Below the pieces are notes generated by a model, which was not told where the DNA came from, searched no databases, and saw only the letters and a program-made list of their open reading frames with translations. Below, one piece after another: positions 4,034 through 10,143 of a DNA stretch of 64,000 nucleotides. The stretch comes from Leucobacter sp. Psy1. Lineage in GTDB: Bacteria; Actinomycetota; Actinomycetes; Actinomycetales; Microbacteriaceae. A program made the translations under genes and the position numbers. The stretch's first letter is position 1. The number at the start of each line of letters is the position of its first letter. The stretch is taken from assembly GCF_020096995.1 (NCBI RefSeq), contig NZ_CP083692.1, forward strand, positions 558,001-622,000. Reading direction: 5' to 3'.

Positions 4034-5107
4034 GTGGCTCTTACTATCGGAATCGTCGGACTCCCGAACGTCGGCAAGTCGACCCTTTTCAACGCGCTGA
4101 CGCGCAATCAGGTGCTGGCGGCGAACTACCCGTTCGCGACCATCGAGCCGAACATCGGGGTCGTGAACCTTCCCGACTCGCGGCTCGACAAGCTGGCCGA
4201 GATCTTCGGGTCGGAGCGGATCCTGCCGGCGCCCGTGAGCTTCGTCGACATCGCGGGCATCGTCCGCGGCGCGAGCGAGGGTGAGGGGCTCGGCAACCAG
4301 TTCCTTGCGAACATCCGCGAGGCGGACGCGATCGCGCAGGTGGTCCGCGGGTTCGAGGATCCGGATGTCGTCCACGTCGACGGCGACGTCAACCCGGCGA
4401 GCGATATGGAGACGATCAACACCGAGCTGATCATCGCCGACCTGCAGACCATCGACAAGGCGCTGGTGCGCTACGAGAAAGAGCTCAAATCGAAGAAGAT
4501 CGATCCGTCGGTGGTCGCTACCGCGAAGGCGGCTCAGGAGGCGCTCAACGACGGGAAGCTGATCTCGCTCACGGACATCGATCTCGAGCCCATCAAGGAG
4601 CTCGGTCTACTCACGGCGAAGCCGTTCCTCTACGTGTTCAACGTCGACGAGGCGGTCCTGCAGGATCGGGCGAAGCTGGACGAGCTGGCCGCCCTCGTGG
4701 CGCCCGCCAAGGCGATCTTCCTCGACGCGAAGATCGAGAGCGAGCTCATCGAGCTCGACCCGGAGGATGCCGCTGAGATGCTCGCCTCGACCGGCCAGGA
4801 GGAGAGCGGCCTCGACCAGCTCGCCCGTATCGGCTTCGAGACGCTCGGACTGCAGACGTATCTGACGGCGGGACCGAAGGAGGCGCGCGCCTGGACGATC
4901 GCCCGCGGTGCGACGGCTCCGCAGGCCGCCGGCGCGATTCACACCGACTTCGAGAAGGGCTTCATCAAGGGCGAGATCATCTCCTTCGAGGATCTCGTCG
5001 AGGCCGGTTCGGTCGCCGAAGCGCGATCGAAGGGCAAGGCCCGCATGGAGGGCAAGGATTACATCATGCAGGACGGCGACGTCTGCGAGTGGCGGTTCAA
5101 CGTCTAG
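4034..5107 (+). CDS. ychF: YchF/Ola1-family P-loop ATPase
   Basis: This 357-aa protein is full length for YchF. It has the G1 loop GLPNVGKST at residues 9-17, the effector-like region YPFATIEPN, a G3-like DIAGIVRGAS, and the C-terminal TGS-type domain ending EWRFNV, the usual YchF terminus. YchF is a ribosome-associated, redox-regulated Obg-family protein that prefers ATP. I chose GTG at 4034 over a TTG nine bases upstream because it gives the family start MALTIGIVGLPNVGKS and fits a leaderless -10 box at 4020. The last 25 bases of the gene (5083-5107) are repeated exactly at 6930-6954, so the 3' end has served as an insertion site for the downstream element. Confidence 0.95.
   Translation: MALTIGIVGLPNVGKSTLFNALTRNQVLAANYPFATIEPNIGVVNLPDSRLDKLAEIFGSERILPAPVSFVDIAGIVRGASEGEGLGNQFLANIREADAIAQVVRGFEDPDVVHVDGDVNPASDMETINTELIIADLQTIDKALVRYEKELKSKKIDPSVVATAKAAQEALNDGKLISLTDIDLEPIKELGLLTAKPFLYVFNVDEAVLQDRAKLDELAALVAPAKAIFLDAKIESELIELDPEDAAEMLASTGQEESGLDQLARIGFETLGLQTYLTAGPKEARAWTIARGATAPQAAGAIHTDFEKGFIKGEIISFEDLVEAGSVAEARSKGKARMEGKDYIMQDGDVCEWRFNV
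5083..5107 (+). repeat. Left copy of 25-bp direct repeat (attL-like), ychF 3' end
   Basis: The 25 bases ending with the ychF stop codon (core TGCGAGTGGCGGTTCAACGT then CTAG) are identical to 6930-6954. The identity stops on both sides: the bases before and after the block differ between the copies. This is the pattern left by site-specific integration that restores the 3' end of the target gene. Confidence 0.85.
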
Positions 5108-5182
5108 TCGCGTTCCGCTTCAACTTGTGTTGGTAAGAGCAGTGGTGCTGGTCGGCTTGTAGTCGTACGTCACCCACCATGC

Positions 5183-5240
5183 TATGGTTATTGACATCAT
5201 GATCAGCCCGTTGCCGCAAGGCGCGGGCTGATTTTCTTTT
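5183..5240 (+). ncRNA. Candidate small structured RNA upstream of the Abi_2 gene
   Basis: A -10-like TATGGT at 5183-5188 would start transcription near 5195. The next bases form a near-perfect hairpin: ATCAGCCCG (5202-5210) pairs with CGGGCTGAT (5224-5232), and inside it GCC-GCAA-GGC (5213-5222) forms a second stem with a GNRA-type tetraloop. The 3' arm is followed by TTTTCTTTT to 5240, so the transcript would end there at about 46 nt. Structured RNAs (the AbiF motif) are described next to Abi_2 genes in other bacteria, which makes this a candidate of that kind. It could instead be only a terminator for ychF readthrough; the position inside the repeat-bounded element favours a link with the Abi gene. 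Confidence 0.5.
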
Positions 5241-5256
5241 GGCAGGAGATGTGAGC

Positions 5257-6240
5257 TTGGAGTACACGAAGGAGTGGCTACCGCTCGAAGGGCAAGTCGA
5301 TCGGCTCATCGCAAGAGGGCTTGAGGTCGAGGACCACGCGCGTGCCATCGCAACGCTTGAAGCGATCGGATACTACCGACTGACTGGCTATCTTTACTCC
5401 TTTTTGGAATCTGAGCAGTATTTCGATGAAGAGGGCCGCGAGTGCACTCGAGTGCTGGGCCGATACCGTCCTGGTACAGCACTGCATCACGCTGAGGCAA
5501 TCATTGATTTTGATCGGCAACTCAGGCTTTTGGTATTGGAGGGAGTCGAACGCATTGAGGTTGCTGTCCGCATGCGTACCGGCTATATTCTCGGGCGTAG
5601 CTCAGCATTTGCGCATGAGGAGATAGCTTGCTTCGACGATTCATTTACGCGTCCGGTCACCGATAGCCGCGAGCCTCGGCCGAGCAAGCATGTTCAATGG
5701 CTCGAGCGCGTCAAAATACGCAGGGATAGCTCAGACGAGCAGTTCGTCGCCCATTTTCGTGACAAGTATGACGACCGCATGCCTGTCTGGGCGCTTACTG
5801 AGCTCTTGGAGTTGGGGCACCTGTCGACCCTTTACCGCGGCATGCTGCAGAAAGACGCTGAAGAGCTCGCGGCGGAGTTCGGCGTGCCGAGGAAAAAGAT
5901 GATGACAAGCTGGCTTGCCAGCCTGAACTATGTTCGAAATGTCGCGGCCCATCATGCGCGGCTTTTCAACAGGAAACTCCAGCACGCACCGTCGCGCCCC
6001 ACGACGGGAACGATACAGGAACTGAACCATCTCAGCGCACCTGGAGCCCCTAAAGCGGATTTTGGTACGTACAACGCGCTCGCGATCATTGCGTACCTCC
6101 TCAAATCAATCGACCTGGAACCGAGCTGGGCCCGGAACCTCACGGACCTCTTTCGTGCCTTCCCGAAGTCGCACGCGCTGACACTTCAATCGATGGGCGT
6201 CCCCGAGGGCTGGGAGGTGCTTGAGCTTTGGCGAGACTGA
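5257..6240 (+). CDS. Abi_2 (AbiD/AbiF-like) abortive infection protein with HEPN motif
   Basis: This 327-aa protein is an Abi_2-family member. The N-terminal part has the family pattern LPLEGQVDRLIARGL followed by AIGYYRLTGYLYSF. The C-terminal part has ASLNYVRNVAAHHARLFN, in which R227-x4-H232 is the catalytic motif of HEPN ribonucleases. Abi_2 proteins act in phage defence; related AbiF proteins have been proposed as relatives of Cas13. AGGAG at 5244-5248 lies 8 bases from TTG 5257, 2 bases from GTG 5251 and overlaps TTG 5239, so I prefer TTG 5257, an unusual start that may keep expression low. The gene follows a hairpin RNA candidate, precedes a methyltransferase gene by 36 bp, and differs in base composition from its neighbours. 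The RNA target is unknown. Confidence 0.85.
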   Translation: MEYTKEWLPLEGQVDRLIARGLEVEDHARAIATLEAIGYYRLTGYLYSFLESEQYFDEEGRECTRVLGRYRPGTALHHAEAIIDFDRQLRLLVLEGVERIEVAVRMRTGYILGRSSAFAHEEIACFDDSFTRPVTDSREPRPSKHVQWLERVKIRRDSSDEQFVAHFRDKYDDRMPVWALTELLELGHLSTLYRGMLQKDAEELAAEFGVPRKKMMTSWLASLNYVRNVAAHHARLFNRKLQHAPSRPTTGTIQELNHLSAPGAPKADFGTYNALAIIAYLLKSIDLEPSWARNLTDLFRAFPKSHALTLQSMGVPEGWEVLELWRD

Positions 6241-6276
6241 TTCATGAACTCGTTGAATACCGCTGAAGGGCGCATT

Positions 6277-6891
6277 ATGAGCACTGAGTATGGACCCCAG
6301 GTGGTGCGCGAAGCTTACGAATCTCGCGCGATCGAGTACACGAAAGCCCTCGGAACTATCGAAACAATGTCTCCGGTGGATCTAGCAGCGATAGAAAGAT
6401 GGTCCCGTGGCATTGGCGGTCGCATTGTTGACGCTGGTTGCGGTCCAGGGCACTGGACTGCGCATCTGCGTAATCTCGGTGCCGACATCGAGGGTATCGA
6501 TATGGTGCCAGCTTTTATCGAGGGTGCTCGGAGGTGCTTTCCCGGAACCACGTTCCGTCTGGGGAAACTGGATGCTCTCCCAGTACAGGCAGCCAGCCTA
6601 GCCGGAATCCTCGCCTGGTATTCCGTGATTCATGTGTCTCCGGAGCTGCTACCCGCAACCATTCAAGAGTTTGTCCGATGTCTTGAGCCTGGAGGAAGTC
6701 TGCTCCTTGGATTCTTCGAAGGGCCACAGGTTGAGTCGTTCGATCATGCCATCACCACTGCCTATTTCTGGCCCGTGAATGAGCTGAGTCGATTTCTTGT
6801 GGGTGCTGGTTTCGAAGTCATAGACGTGCAGATGCGAACCGACCCTGGTGTTCGACCTCATGCCGTGATAGCTGCACAGCTTGCCGATTGA
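6277..6891 (+). CDS. Class I SAM-dependent methyltransferase, cargo of the ychF element
   Basis: This 204-aa protein has a complete Rossmann-type methyltransferase core: motif I IVDAGCGPGHWTAHL, motif II IEGIDMVPAFIEGAR and motif IV region ILAWYSVIHV. The C-terminal part contains SLLLGFFEG as post-motif strand. The substrate is unknown; the fold is that of small-molecule methyltransferases (Methyltransf_11/25 type) rather than DNA methylases, since no DPPY-like motif is seen. I chose ATG 6277 (after GAAGGG at 6265-6270) over ATG 6244; both give the same domain. It lies 36 bp after the Abi_2 stop inside the direct-repeat-bounded segment, so it may be part of the defence unit or simply a passenger. 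The distal repeat begins 38 bp after its stop. Confidence 0.8.
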   Translation: MSTEYGPQVVREAYESRAIEYTKALGTIETMSPVDLAAIERWSRGIGGRIVDAGCGPGHWTAHLRNLGADIEGIDMVPAFIEGARRCFPGTTFRLGKLDALPVQAASLAGILAWYSVIHVSPELLPATIQEFVRCLEPGGSLLLGFFEGPQVESFDHAITTAYFWPVNELSRFLVGAGFEVIDVQMRTDPGVRPHAVIAAQLAD

Positions 6892-6929
6892 TCTGAATTC
6901 TTCAACACGTTTGCTATCTGGGGGCACTC

Positions 6930-6954
6930 CTGCGAGTGGCGGTTCAACGTCTAG
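6930..6954 (+). repeat. Right copy of 25-bp direct repeat (attR-like)
   Basis: Exact duplicate of the last 25 bases of ychF, including its TAG. Here it is not part of any coding sequence, which supports the view that this copy was created by integration or carried on the incoming element. Confidence 0.85.
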
Positions 6955-7023
6955 AACGTTGATTTCACGCGCTTCGTGAGTCGTGCAATTGGCGCTCATC
7001 GCGCTGTGCCTCCGAACCGTTCG

Positions 7024-7039
7024 CATGATGGATATCATG
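7024..7039. promoter_or_regulatory. Operator-like inverted repeat before the antitoxin gene
   Basis: CATGAT-GGAT-ATCATG is a perfect 6-bp inverted repeat with a 4-bp spacer, ending 27 bp before the antitoxin start. FitA/VapB-type ribbon-helix-helix antitoxins repress their own promoters by binding short palindromes, so this is a good autoregulatory operator candidate. Confidence 0.5.
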
Positions 7040-7066
7040 AGTGCTCTCACTCAGGAGGTGATGTTC

Positions 7067-7357
7067 ATGTCGTCCATCATCGTGCGGGGCCTTGATGAAT
7101 CGGTCAAGAACCAATTAGTCGCGCGGGCGAAACGTCATGGCCAGTCGATGGAGGCCGAAGTACGCGACATCCTCACCCAAGCAGCGCAGCGTCCGAACAT
7201 CGGGGTTGCGCTGATGCGAGCGGCACAAGGTGCCGGTGGAATCGACGATCTTCCAGTTCCCGAGCGCAACGACTTCGCTCGTCGACCCGTGGACGCACTG
7301 AGCACACGAATCAGCAGCTTTCGCCGAGAGCTCCCGTCCTCGAATTCCTGGGGATAG
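7067..7357 (+). CDS. FitA/VapB-like ribbon-helix-helix antitoxin, orphan, aberrant C-terminus
   Basis: The product (96 aa) begins MSSIIVRGLDESVKNQLVAR, then HGQSMEAEVRDILTQA, the ribbon-helix-helix DNA-binding pattern of FitA-like antitoxins, and continues with IDDLPVPERNDFAR, the usual toxin-binding tail. The expected stop soon after this tail is missing; another 30 or so residues of unconserved sequence follow, ending PSSNSWG. I chose ATG 7067 because AGGAGG at 7053-7058 is 8 bases upstream. No PIN-domain toxin follows, although in fitAB/vapBC operons the toxin start overlaps the antitoxin stop. The gene is therefore probably a degraded toxin-antitoxin remnant or a solitary repressor. It lies 112 bp beyond the distal repeat of the Abi element. 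Confidence 0.65.
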   Translation: MSSIIVRGLDESVKNQLVARAKRHGQSMEAEVRDILTQAAQRPNIGVALMRAAQGAGGIDDLPVPERNDFARRPVDALSTRISSFRRELPSSNSWG

Positions 7358-7698
7358 CTCGCAACCGTGTGCAGGGACCGTGGCGCTCTCCAACAGCCCC
7401 TGGGCCCATCGTTGGAGCAGAAGGAGAATGCCCCTCGACGAGCTTGAGCTTCGCCTGTGTTTTTGATCGAGATCGACCAGGTCGCCGTGGCCCGCACTGA
7501 TCTGCGCCCGGTTTGCACGAAGGGCCCGGAGGCGACGTCTCGGAATACCATCGACCTCGAGTCATCACTCCGGGGAACACTCGTGTGGAGACGACCGCGG
7601 GAGGCCTCGCACAGGCCTTTTTCGCACCCATACTTGCCGGATTCTCGCGGGCGAGGCTTGCGGGCAGCTCGAAGCTCTGCGCGAGCAACGCTGGCGCC
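7358..7698. other. 341-bp region without a recognisable gene
   Basis: This stretch lies between the orphan antitoxin and the convergent MazG-like/GyrI-like gene. Open frames cross it on both strands but none gives a protein pattern I recognise, and none has both a convincing start and sensible composition. It contains one terminator-like hairpin (7602-7622). It may be the decayed remains of the toxin gene expected after the antitoxin, but I see no PIN-domain residues that would prove it. Confidence 0.5.
7602..7622 (+). terminator. Rho-independent terminator candidate
   Basis: AGGCCT (7602-7607) and AGGCCT (7613-7618) form a 6-bp stem with a 5-base loop, followed by a T run to 7622. The orientation suits transcription from the antitoxin side. 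The opposite strand has no T run after the stem. Confidence 0.5.
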
Positions 7699-8622
7699 TC
7701 ACCCCACCGGGTCGCGGAGGATCGTCCGGAGGTCGGCCTGGGGTGTCTCGGGTCCGAACGCATCGAGGTGGATTTCGTGGTGCGGGCCACGGCGACGGAG
7801 GCCGCGCGAGGCCGCGAACGCTCCGAGGCGTGCCAGTGTGGCGTGCTCGTCTGCGAATGGGCCGTGGTGCATGACCTGGACGACTTCTTGCTCCGGCTGG
7901 TGCAGGATGGTGATCTCGTCGGTGGGGCGCGCCGGATCCGCGATGCGTTCGACGGCCGCAGCGAGCTGGGCGTCGTCTGTCGCGTCGGGGGCGAGCGCCA
8001 GCACCCGATAGTGCAGCGACGGGATCGGGTTCGTGAGGTAGAAGTCGGCGATCTCGACCGGTGCCGCATCCTCGGGGTACCAGTACTGGAGCTCGACGAC
8101 CGGCGCGGTCGCACTGGGTGAGAGCTCAGTCGCCAGCTGCGTGATGAGCCTTTTCTTGCGGTAGAACTCCTCGGTGCCCGGCGCTCCCAAACCCGCTACG
8201 GCGACGTACGTGGCCGCGGGCACGCTGACCTGTTCCGGGGTGTCCGATGCGCTGAGGTGCGCGGACTCGCTCGGCGCCGTGCGCGCGATCGTGGATGCGA
8301 GGCCCGCCCGGATCCGGCCCATCGTCTCGGGGAACGCTTCGGTTATGTCGATCCCGAGCCGGTCGGCGATGACGAAGACCCACCACATCGATTCGGAGAG
8401 CTTGTGCTCGAGCTCTGCCCGCGGGTCGCCGTCGATCTGCCAGGTGCCTTCTTCTGCGAGCAGGAGTCGCCCGATCTGACCGACGTCGTTGGCGAATCCG
8501 ATCTGCAACTGGTGGGTCGACCAGGTCTTGCCGTTGAACCGCTGCTCGAGGGTCTCGTACATCGCGCGGACCGCGAGTGCTTCGTCTCTGGCGGTGGAGA
8601 GGGCGGCATCAACTGCGGGCAT
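7699..8622 (-). CDS. MazG-like / GyrI-like two-domain protein
   Basis: This 307-aa protein appears to be a fusion. Residues about 15-110 resemble the small all-alpha MazG-like pyrophosphohydrolase fold: LQIGFANDVGQIGRLLL, then ELEHKLSESMWWVFVIADRLGIDITEAF. The usual acidic EExxE-type positions are only partly kept (DVG; HKLSES rather than HELADC), so activity is uncertain. Residues about 145-307 are a GyrI-like small-molecule-binding domain: an aromatic QYWYPEDAAP stretch, HHGPF, and the family ending HHEIHLDAFGPETP then DLRTILRDPVG. It starts 40 bp after the TetR gene stop on the same strand, so the two form an operon. A sensor or stress-binding role is inferred; the ATG follows GGGAG. Confidence 0.75.
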   Translation of the reverse strand: MPAVDAALSTARDEALAVRAMYETLEQRFNGKTWSTHQLQIGFANDVGQIGRLLLAEEGTWQIDGDPRAELEHKLSESMWWVFVIADRLGIDITEAFPETMGRIRAGLASTIARTAPSESAHLSASDTPEQVSVPAATYVAVAGLGAPGTEEFYRKKRLITQLATELSPSATAPVVELQYWYPEDAAPVEIADFYLTNPIPSLHYRVLALAPDATDDAQLAAAVERIADPARPTDEITILHQPEQEVVQVMHHGPFADEHATLARLGAFAASRGLRRRGPHHEIHLDAFGPETPQADLRTILRDPVG

Positions 8623-8661
8623 GTGGGGTCTCCCAGGTGTGGTGGTGGCGTCTTGGGTGGG

Positions 8662-9249
8662 TCAGTGAGTGGGAATTGCGGTGGCGGCACGTCGGGCGAT
8701 GGCGACCAGAGCGTCGCGAGGCGTCCCGTCCGCGGCGCGGATCGCGAAGCCGCTCGAGAGCGCCAGGAGGAGCCCGGCGAGCTCGTCTGGGTCGGCGTCC
8801 TCAGGGACGTCGCCCTCGGCGATACCGCGGCGGAATCGTTCTGCGAAGCGCTCATGAATCTCGACACGGTTGCGGGCCAGCACCGCGAATTCGTCCGACC
8901 CCTCGGGAGTGGCCGCGGCCTGGACCGAGAGGCAGCCAGCGGGACGCCCCGGCATCGTGACCGCTCGGGCGTTCCCGACGAGAAACGCCTCGGCGAACGC
9001 TCGGGTGCTCGGCTGCGCGAGTGCTTCGGTGACGTACCCCATGTTGCGCTCGATGTACCGGCGCAGGGCGGCCTGGAAGAGCTGCGACTTATCGCCGAAG
9101 GCGGCGTAGATGCTTGGCTTGTTGATACCCATGGCCGCCGCGAGGTCGGTGAGGCTCGCGCTCTTGAATCCCTGCGCCCAGAAGACATCGACCGCCGCAT
9201 CGAGTGCGCGATCGGTGTCGAACGCTCGGGGTCTCCCCACTCCAGCCAT
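8662..9249 (-). CDS. TetR-family transcriptional regulator
   Basis: This 195-aa protein has an N-terminal helix-turn-helix of TetR type: GRPRAFDTDRALDAAVDVFW, then GFKSASLTDLAAAMGINKPSIYAAFGDKSQLF (residues about 28-59). The C-terminal half is the variable ligand domain, with RPAGCLSVQAA typical of the AcrR/YvdT-like subgroup. I chose ATG 9249, preceded by AGAGGA, over an upstream in-frame start that has no conserved sequence. An inverted repeat (9272-9295) lies just upstream, between this gene and the divergent CPBP protease gene, and is the probable operator. The regulated genes are probably itself, the downstream MazG/GyrI-like gene and perhaps the divergent gene. Confidence 0.9.
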   Translation of the reverse strand: MAGVGRPRAFDTDRALDAAVDVFWAQGFKSASLTDLAAAMGINKPSIYAAFGDKSQLFQAALRRYIERNMGYVTEALAQPSTRAFAEAFLVGNARAVTMPGRPAGCLSVQAAATPEGSDEFAVLARNRVEIHERFAERFRRGIAEGDVPEDADPDELAGLLLALSSGFAIRAADGTPRDALVAIARRAATAIPTH

Positions 9250-9271
9250 CGCGATCCTCTCGTGTTCGGTA

Positions 9272-9295
9272 TTTCTGTAATGCACAGTACAGAAA
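9272..9295. promoter_or_regulatory. Probable TetR operator
   Basis: TTTCTGTA (9272-9279) and TACAGAAA (9288-9295) are perfect 8-bp arms separated by 8 bp. The site ends 23 bp upstream of the tetR-family start, the normal place for autorepression. It also lies upstream of the divergent CPBP gene, about 70 bp from that gene's -10 box. Confidence 0.65.
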
Positions 9296-9364
9296 GAATG
9301 GGCCGATGTCCACCGAAGACCCCCGCCCGCCCGGAGGTCGCCGACCGTGAGCCGCACGAGTGCG

Positions 9365-9370
9365 TAGACT
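9365..9370 (+). promoter_or_regulatory. -10 element for the CPBP protease gene
   Basis: TAGACT lies 29 bp before the ATG at 9400 and would give a leader of about 23 nt that contains GGGAG at 9391-9395. Confidence 0.4.
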
Positions 9371-9399
9371 CCTCCGAGACGCGGAACCGAGGGAGTGGG

Positions 9400-10107
9400 A
9401 TGAAACAGGGATCATCGAGCGTGGACACTGCAGCGCAGGTGAGGGGTCCAGGCTGGCCAGAGATCCTCGCCGGGGGAGCCGCCTATGTCGCCTCCATCGG
9501 CCTGGTTGTGCTGCTGCTCCCGCTCATCTCGGAGCCGGTCGTGCAGGGGAACGTGGCACTCCTCGTCTCGGGGCTCATGGGGATCATCGCGCTCGCGGTA
9601 GCCGTGCTGATCAGGATCCGGGGCCTTGAGCCGTTCGGCTTCCGCCGGGCGCGACCCCTGCACCTGGGCGTCGGTGCCGGACTCGGTGTGCTCGCCTACG
9701 GTCTCGGTATCGTCGCCGCGCTGGTCTATACCGCGCTGACCGGGCAGGCGGAGAACGTGCAGGAGGGTTATCAGGCCGCGGCCGCCGGCGGCTGGCTCTC
9801 ACTCGCCCTCGCGATCGTCGCCGGTGCGCTGATCACGCCGCTAGGGGAGGAGGGCTTCTTCCGAGGCGTGCTCGCGAATGCGCTGCTGGCGCGCTACGGG
9901 GCGTGGGTCGGTGTGCTGGTAAGCGCCGCGGTCTTCGCCGTTGCGCACGGGATCAACCCGATCCTTCCGGTGGCGTTCGTCGTCGGCGTGATGACGGCGC
10001 TGCTCTTCCGATGGTCGGGGTCGATCTGGCCGGGGGTCGTACTCCACGGCGTCAACAACGCCGTCGCTCTGATCATCCCGCTGATGGTGGGCGTCGCCGA
10101 CGCGTAG
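9400..10107 (+). CDS. CPBP-family intramembrane glutamic/metallo protease
   Basis: This 235-aa protein has about seven hydrophobic segments. The CPBP/Abi (CAAX-like) signature is complete: GEEGFFRGVL (EExxxR), AVFAVAHG (FxxxH) and HGVNNAV (HxxxN), roughly residues 148-225. The family cleaves or binds membrane-embedded substrates and includes prenyl-protein and bacteriocin-immunity proteins; the substrate here is not predictable. The start ATG 9400 has GGGAG at 9391-9395. The gene is divergent from the TetR-family regulator and shares its intergenic inverted repeat. A second CPBP protease is encoded at 18463-19275. Confidence 0.85.
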   Translation: MKQGSSSVDTAAQVRGPGWPEILAGGAAYVASIGLVVLLLPLISEPVVQGNVALLVSGLMGIIALAVAVLIRIRGLEPFGFRRARPLHLGVGAGLGVLAYGLGIVAALVYTALTGQAENVQEGYQAAAAGGWLSLALAIVAGALITPLGEEGFFRGVLANALLARYGAWVGVLVSAAVFAVAHGINPILPVAFVVGVMTALLFRWSGSIWPGVVLHGVNNAVALIIPLMVGVADA

Positions 10108-10143
10108 CGTCGACGCATCCGGATTTCACGGCAGACTGAACCC

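Follow-up and report, generated by a model that had tools for sequence, protein, structure and literature searches.

Mobile and chromosomal integrons hold arrays of small cassettes that are rich in toxin-antitoxin and defence genes. Tandem accretion and cis-mobilizable elements (CIMEs), the latter described as decay products, are known for integrative and conjugative elements (ICEs) and integrative and mobilizable elements (IMEs) (PMC5704250). In the ssrA islands of Dehalococcoides, which have the CcrB-like serine recombinase DsiB, one gene is followed downstream by over a dozen gene-end repeats, each with a conserved motif beside it, and 15 islands are without an integration module (PMC3146451). 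The 3' end of rlmH is the site of the SCC and ECC elements, with CcrAB serine recombinases, attachment (att) sites of about 50 bp and ECCs of 21–78 kb (PMC6222049), and a pneumococcal prophage between dnaN and ychF has a 14-bp attB that lies on the promoter side of the latter gene (PMC6375853). Here we describe a unit of 1.8 kb bounded by two copies of the ychF 3' end in a 64,000-nucleotide stretch of the genome of Leucobacter sp. Psy1 (hereafter the window), and compare it with other insertions at this gene end. Its central gene encodes an Abi_2 protein and is preceded by a hairpin RNA; in Clostridioides difficile, the hairpin RNA RCd22, directly upstream of AbiF, has been reported as an antitoxin (PMC12373285).

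A duplicated gene end and an empty site

The target gene ychF (redox-regulated ATPase YchF; 4034–5107, + strand; TIGR00092 434 bits, cut-off 279.2) is intact. We confirmed the preliminary description in that its final 25 bases, including the stop codon (5083–5107, + strand; the attL-like proximal repeat), recur without a mismatch at 6930–6954 (+ strand; the attR-like distal repeat), the identity ending at either border. No third copy was found in the window at up to three mismatches, and none in 100 shuffles, the next-best 25-mer of the window having eight mismatches to the repeat; in the whole genome (3,246,778 bases) a 24-mer of the repeat occurs at these two places only, again at up to three mismatches. 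The enclosed DNA is A/T-richer, as had been described, with a G+C content of 0.559 compared to 0.650 for ychF and 0.661 for the window. The unit seems to bring a copy of the gene end with it, which leaves ychF whole and re-creates the target. Among 50 ychF loci of the genus, the gene end was duplicated in three (at up to three mismatches), namely the window's own locus (G000 in this set; no mismatch) and those of genomes G011 and G047 (three mismatches each). In a control set of 405 further predicted gene ends from these loci, none had a copy within 12 kb downstream at up to two mismatches. A second ychF-end copy 1.0 kb downstream of the gene in G034 (21/27) was judged too weak.

The closest relative, G048, whose YchF is 99% identical to that of the window, provides an empty site. 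The homologue of the DNA from window position 10124 onwards starts there at most five bases past the ychF stop codon, and G048 lacks the repeat-bounded unit together with the 3.2 kb that follow it. The variable stretch is therefore 5.0 kb long, reaching to about 10123, and the element that had been proposed between the repeats, which are real, makes up only its first 1.8 kb. None of the 49 other genus loci showed the Abi gene downstream of ychF.

Other insertions were present at the same place in the genus. In line with the proposal of an attachment site, other cargo lies between ychF-end copies: integrase-less segments of 0.87 kb in G011 and 1.44 kb in G047 carry HigBA, the higB frame of G011 being broken. 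A 6.8-kb element in G016 has a large serine recombinase (PF00239, PF07508) adjoining the distal copy, and a 12.0-kb element in G022 has a 578-aa tyrosine integrase in the same position (Phage_integrase 26.1 bits, just below the cut-off of 27.1). The G022 element restores the ychF gene end, as the small cassettes do. The G016 element (locus L063) swaps the C-terminus of YchF for a different tail, without restoration. The G022 integrase had no relatives at 1e-10 in the other 53 genomes of the genus, and small home-made profiles recognised no other recombinases downstream of ychF in the genus loci except an Xer-like gene of the window, 56 kb off.

Cassette arrays across the order

Of 396 genomes sampled from the order, 293 matched the pattern of the commoner ychF end (EFRFNV); the reversed pattern, used as a control, gave one match. 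By our own count from the resulting table, 69 of the 396 genomes have at least two same-strand ychF-end copies, and up to six, although copies of one genome may sit on different contigs (e.g., G758). A family pattern for the W-type ychF end matched 14 of 398 genomes and was uninformative. Twenty-five of the 69 loci (L182–L206) were analysed; they hold 71 copies, with three to six copies in 11 loci and two in the others. The 46 cassettes measure 679–11,070 bases (median 2.3 kb), and 37 are at most 4.5 kb long.

Overall, the cassettes carry toxin-antitoxin, defence and metabolic genes. There were 181 predicted open reading frames (ORFs) between the copies, and 154 of them were scanned in two sets. 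The 92 ORFs of the smaller cassettes gave HTH_3 (5), HigB (3), PIN (3) and Phd/YefM (3) matches, together with acetyltransferases, hydrolases and Cass2/GyrI-like proteins (all among 25 of 74 families listed). In a 1.6-kb cassette of G677 (L195:1412–2679), PDC-M34A (DUF5343) and PDC-M34B (Swt1-like HEPN), a candidate defence pair, are the sole genes called wholly inside; further defence matches were AbiD/Abi_2 (G800), a protein resembling PDC-S58/ApeA (G646) and a kinase-like protein (G535). The arrays resemble integrons in the small size of their cassettes and in the abundance of toxin-antitoxin and defence genes, but the repeat here is the end of a protein gene.

Cassettes are shared between genomes whose neighbouring DNA mostly differs. 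A cassette of 6.3–6.6 kb is 96.2% identical between L186 and L205 and recurs within L204 (94%), all in one genus, and L190 and L196, again of one genus, share a cassette at 88.9%. Across families, a 1.0-kb single-gene cassette lies next to ychF in two (L194 and L188, 78% over 94%), and another family has cassettes related to that of L190 at 75–79% (L198, L189). No similarity was found between the neighbours of shared cassettes in seven of nine comparisons; the similar ones were 78 bp behind the junction in L186/L205 and a HigBA-like stretch of 612 bp at 69% in L190/L196. In addition, 14 of the 71 copies run directly into one common TAGCGTTATTGACG-like start, which in several loci is the start of HigB.

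With the ychF 3' end at both of its borders, the window unit is built like the members of these arrays and, judged from sequence, seems to belong to a far larger ychF cassette family and not to be a lone element. It is highly improbable that the second ychF end arose by chance, slippage or local duplication and that the enclosed genes are native. The methyltransferase gene of the unit, a common neighbour of ychF in the genus, would fit such an origin, but the absence of the segment from G048 already contradicts it, as do the lack of the Abi gene downstream of ychF in the other 49 loci, the absence of duplication at 405 other gene ends and the recurrence of the pattern at ychF in 69 of 396 genomes.

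Half-sites at the junctions

Ahead of the repeat, the distal copies have a half-site of about 30 bp in common that the ychF genes are without. In a leave-one-out test with a position weight matrix (PWM) of the half-site, 35 of 51 distal copies and none of 18 ychF genes scored above a 1-in-1000 null; the third copy of L190, a long ychF fragment, was excluded from the model. The half-site pattern was not found in viral contigs. At the inner left end of the window unit, a putative element half-site (5108–5127, + strand) matches the cassette starts of L183 at 18 of 20 positions and of L193 at 17 of 20, both from other families; among 3000 20-mers drawn at random from the window, one reached 18. 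The stretch preceding the distal repeat (6900–6929, + strand), a P-arm-like half-site, matches the array half-site of L187 at 16 of 24 positions, which was equalled by 7 of 1500 random places. These ends suggest kinship with the array cassettes and are not proof of it. The repeats, the motif beside them and the islands free of an integration module are features that the ssrA islands of Dehalococcoides, as described, share with the ychF arrays; unlike here, the target there is the transfer-messenger RNA gene and the islands are the size of phage genomes, whereas the ychF arrays of Actinobacteria sit at a protein gene and consist mostly of small toxin-antitoxin, defence and metabolic cassettes.

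An alternative explanation is homologous (Campbell-type) recombination, in which RecA would integrate a circular DNA that bears the 3' end of a foreign gene, with no site-specific recombinase. Long divergent duplications agree with this, such as the 95-residue ychF fragment in L190 and, at other targets of Abi_2 units (see below), 417 bp of an RlmB-type gene at 73% in L122 and 154 bp of mutM at 90% in L117. However, most ychF copies are short, comprise the same few final codons and are preceded by a half-site that ychF lacks, and exact cores of 15–38 bp occur at several target genes. We therefore regard this explanation as unlikely.

Candidate recombinases and the origin of the unit

Intergenic DNA of the Streptomyces satellite phage MulchRoom (OQ784832.1; L209:1960–2030) includes the last 13 codons and the stop codon of ychF, at a distance of 84 bp from the annotated tyrosine integrase gene of the phage. 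This stretch is likely an attP for the ychF end and would restore the gene end in the way the cassettes do. The publication on MulchRoom describes a lysogeny module and the integrase, and its main text is without attP, attB or ychF (PMC10690885). MulchRoom (helper MulchMansion) and the window unit have the ychF 3' end in common, but MulchRoom is a 14.8-kb capsid-coding satellite. No relatives of its integrase were found in other phage records at 1e-15. Tyrosine integrases are our first guess for the recombinase class, because the MulchRoom stretch and the G022 element restore the gene end and the G016 serine element does not.

Searches of phage and plasmid records with a 56-base junction gave few matches. 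Five weak ones came from phages; of the two that were checked, one was the MulchRoom ychF end and the other L208 (MT836021.1), a phage-labelled record that resembles a bacterial chromosome and has a whole ychF followed by HigBA. Plasmids gave two matches, one of which was L207 (NZ_LN868939.1), a 2.66-Mb Nocardia farcinica record labelled plasmid; it has three ychF-end copies, no ychF in the 14 kb read, and behind one copy the same sequence as stands behind a copy in L188. The W-type ychF end matched five viral contigs, none with ychF by tblastn, and these matches were taken as chance.

The claim that ychF is used as an attachment site found support. The empty site in G048, the recombinase-bearing elements and the integrase-less HigBA segments in the genus, Abi_2 genes at ychF in other genera (see below), the MulchRoom ychF end beside an integrase and the repeated ychF ends across the order all support ychF 3' ends as a recurrent attachment site. 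The pneumococcal prophage likewise has its site in the ychF neighbourhood, but, as described, not at the 3' end. The further claim that the unit is mobile we infer from comparison. Our preferred explanation, which we consider probable, is that the window unit is an integrase-less, att-flanked (CIME-like) cassette of the ychF cassette family, moved in trans. A recombinase supplied in trans would insert the cassette as a circle at the 3' end of ychF, where the cassette's own copy of the gene end would restore ychF and create a new target. Within the order (the taxonomic group), further cassettes would thereby be able to enter the same place, giving tandem arrays in which each junction consists of an element half-site and a ychF 3' end. 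The reaction, its enzyme, the action in trans and the order and polarity of insertion are all parts of this model that we infer.

Several observations weigh against this explanation. The sample holds one genome per species and so gives no strain-level view; 14 of the 25 array loci hold a single cassette only, and in six no ychF lies within the fetched stretch. The distal copy of the window is borderline by the PWM (p = 0.049), and G011, G047, G016 and G022 have no match to the array half-site (p values of 0.089 to 1), so that other recombinases may serve the elements of this genus. In the fetched arrays, neither a small home-made profile nor the Pfam matches listed revealed an intact recombinase, no relative of the MulchRoom integrase was found at 0.01, and a decayed serine-recombinase-like frame that abuts a junction in L205 (phmmer 1.1e-4) has no Pfam match at 1e-3. 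The preliminary description had suggested a search for integrases acting in trans; in the genome of the window this yielded six tyrosine recombinase matches, two beside tRNA genes and none at ychF, and no helper for the unit was found. Large serine recombinases gave no matches in this genome. In this the unit is unlike SCC and ECC, as it is in the lack of a recognised ccr-like gene in the cassettes and in having ychF, not rlmH, as its site; the use of the 3' end of a conserved protein gene is shared with them as described. Moreover, the methyltransferase is probably not specific to the unit.

It is also conceivable, with a chance somewhat below even, that the unit is an immobile remnant of a larger integrative element (a prophage, satellite, ICE or IME) that lost its integrase, i.e., a CIME formed by decay, in which deletion spared just the attachment sites and an addictive RNA-toxin module. 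In its favour, G016 and G022 have full-size, recombinase-bearing elements at this site, the ychF end is present in a satellite phage, and L205 has a decayed recombinase-like frame next to a junction. Toxin-antitoxin genes are also common in the small cassettes, which would be expected of addiction modules that resist loss. Similar to CIMEs as described, the window unit is flanked by att-like sites (the 25-bp repeats, with the empty site in G048), has no integration or transfer genes, no integrase being present among the ORFs between the repeats, and belongs to a type found in tandem at one gene end. Unlike CIMEs, the small cassettes recur in unrelated genomes, have a common half-site and are without an intact helper among those searched for. 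Decay in place fails to explain near-alike cassettes across genomes with dissimilar neighbours in seven of nine comparisons. In addition, G011, G047, G016 and G022 lack the common half-site, so none of them was recognised by the PWM as a parent element with the ends of the window unit, and no such parent is known.

Cargo of the window unit

The only genes inside the repeats are those of an Abi_2 protein and a methyltransferase, in agreement with the preliminary description. The Abi_2 (AbiD/AbiF-type) HEPN protein (5257–6240, + strand) matches PF07751 (E = 7.8e-45) and PADLOC AbiD (E = 2.8e-54) and has the RNxxxH motif at residue 227; its closest relative, at 92%, is in a Leucobacter metagenome-assembled genome, and a relative of solved structure is 8vz6 (found with alignment A2). 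Immediately upstream lies the abiF-type hairpin RNA with a T-run (5196–5240, + strand), a predicted antitoxin RNA. The hairpin, which had been proposed as a candidate, folds better than shuffled sequences (z = −3.2) and is conserved, being found at nearly the same position in 64 of 67 Abi loci, the other three being masked (one) or missing the gene start (two). Covariation was assessed in 29 sequences, i.e., 28 of the 30 distinct ones and the window. Six of 13 pairs showed changes on both sides, which none of 500 shuffles reached; the count of further pair types was less extreme (reached by 18 of 500 shuffles), and shifting the partners reduced all measures. An extended −10 box (TGnTAnnnT; 5180–5188, + strand), with similar boxes before the hairpin in most loci displayed, may be the promoter of the RNA.

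Similar to AbiF/AbiD with abiF RNA, the window thus combines an Abi_2 HEPN protein with a structured RNA directly upstream; unlike abiF RNA, which has two motifs, the RNA is a single short hairpin. The Rfam model abiF (RF03085) had no match in the window at E ≤ 1 and none in eight sources at the gathering score. The window RNA may work like abiF RNA, but it was not filed as a member of RF03085. By analogy with C. difficile, the RNA would act as the antitoxin of Abi_2, restraining a toxic HEPN ribonuclease until phage infection; the toxicity and the defence role of the window protein are predicted. The promoter, the hairpin RNA and the Abi_2 protein, predicted to work in an AbiF-like manner, would be the key cargo of the unit.

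The methyltransferase (6244–6891, + strand; class I S-adenosylmethionine-dependent; PF13649, E = 3.1e-15) is probably a passenger, because homologues (54–67% amino acid identity) recur without Abi within 15 kb of ychF in 6 of the 49 other genus loci, in one of them directly behind ychF. Of the defence content proposed for the unit, Abi_2 stands, while the methyltransferase need not be defence cargo. That the two genes form one defence system and move together is quite improbable. They are adjacent, on the same strand, three bases apart and both inside the repeats; however, homologues without Abi occur near ychF, as just stated, and none of 61 named Abi loci had a methyltransferase homologue at 1e-8 within 6 kb on either side.

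Abi_2 units at other places

These 61 loci came from a scan of named genomes for Abi_2. Three lie at ychF 3' ends: L127 (Mycobacterium montefiorense), with an exact 20-bp ychF-end repeat on the far side of Abi, L115 (Prauserella flavalba), with a 16-bp core, and L118 (Actinokineospora spheciospongiae). By the half-site PWM, L127 scored 0.012 and L118 0.005, and L115 failed. Other Abi_2 units adjoin mutM, pdxS or an RlmB-type gene, at the 3' end or at a fragment of it; when a single intact copy per gene was scanned, mutM and PdxS scored above their NCBIfam cut-offs and the RlmB-type copy below its own. Such units were seen in several genera at ends of pdxS (L113, L114, L116, L119, L154 and L164, the last with two pdxS-end copies), mutM (L117, L126, L129, L130, L163 and L176) and the RlmB-type gene (L122 and L153). 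L176 (MT835574.1), with the Abi_2 unit between mutM ends, is a phage-labelled record that resembles a bacterial chromosome. Direct repeats tightly flanking Abi (score at least 20) were found in 8 of 60 testable loci compared to 3 of 113 shifted controls. The eight include the window itself and L158, which was dropped as attachment evidence since, by our own reading, its repeats are two pdxK-like paralogues.

Between genera, nucleotide similarity starts at about −80 to −180 and runs to just past the Abi stop codon, where it ends in most of the closest pairs (e.g., L137/L139, 96.8% over −158 to 998); it extends further in some, such as L129/L176 and L114/L119. Because this similarity ends around the promoter, RNA and abi gene, the three behave, at the level of sequence comparison, as a unit of about 1.1 kb that is portable. 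Rhodococcus plasmids typed as conjugative also have related Abi genes, and no viral contigs had an Abi match with alignment A2. Resolvase-type serine recombinases adjoin some Abi_2 units (L137, at 7173–7823, confirmed as PF00239; L139, L124 and L122) and may mark transposon carriers.

DNA beyond the distal repeat

The further window DNA without a counterpart in G048 (6955–10123) contains GyrI-like, TetR and Rce1/CPBP-like genes. It also includes, directly behind the distal repeat, a VapB/FitA-like antitoxin gene (7080–7357, + strand; PF22513). Homologues of this gene lie within a ychF cassette in G553 and in the ychF neighbourhood of G044. No toxin gene was recognised beside it, and it is perhaps a relic of an older cassette, with no recognisable bounding repeat.

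Implications

Taken together, the data suggest a shared insertion route at the ychF 3' end for which we found no description. Our literature search returned no report of ychF-end arrays, the ychF papers among the matches listed being on pneumococci, which is not proof that none exists. Tentatively, and with a chance somewhat below even, a cassette system resembling integrons may have its point of entry at the ychF 3' end in Actinobacteria. Its recombinases would act in trans, in part supplied by phages or satellites such as MulchRoom, and would capture naked cassettes of 0.7–6 kb with a ychF-end site; each insertion would rebuild ychF and the target, and ordered toxin-antitoxin, defence and metabolic arrays would grow at a housekeeping gene, with minimal RNA-toxin units such as the Abi_2 cassette of the window as the smallest defence cargo. 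If true, Actinobacteria would have a common chromosomal site that accumulates small defence and addiction cassettes. This site would be visible from the gene-end repeat alone, so that boundaries and cargo could be read across thousands of genomes. The travel of integrase-less minimal defence units would also become testable, with a defined site, a defined target and few candidate recombinases, one of which sits in a cultured satellite phage, MulchRoom.

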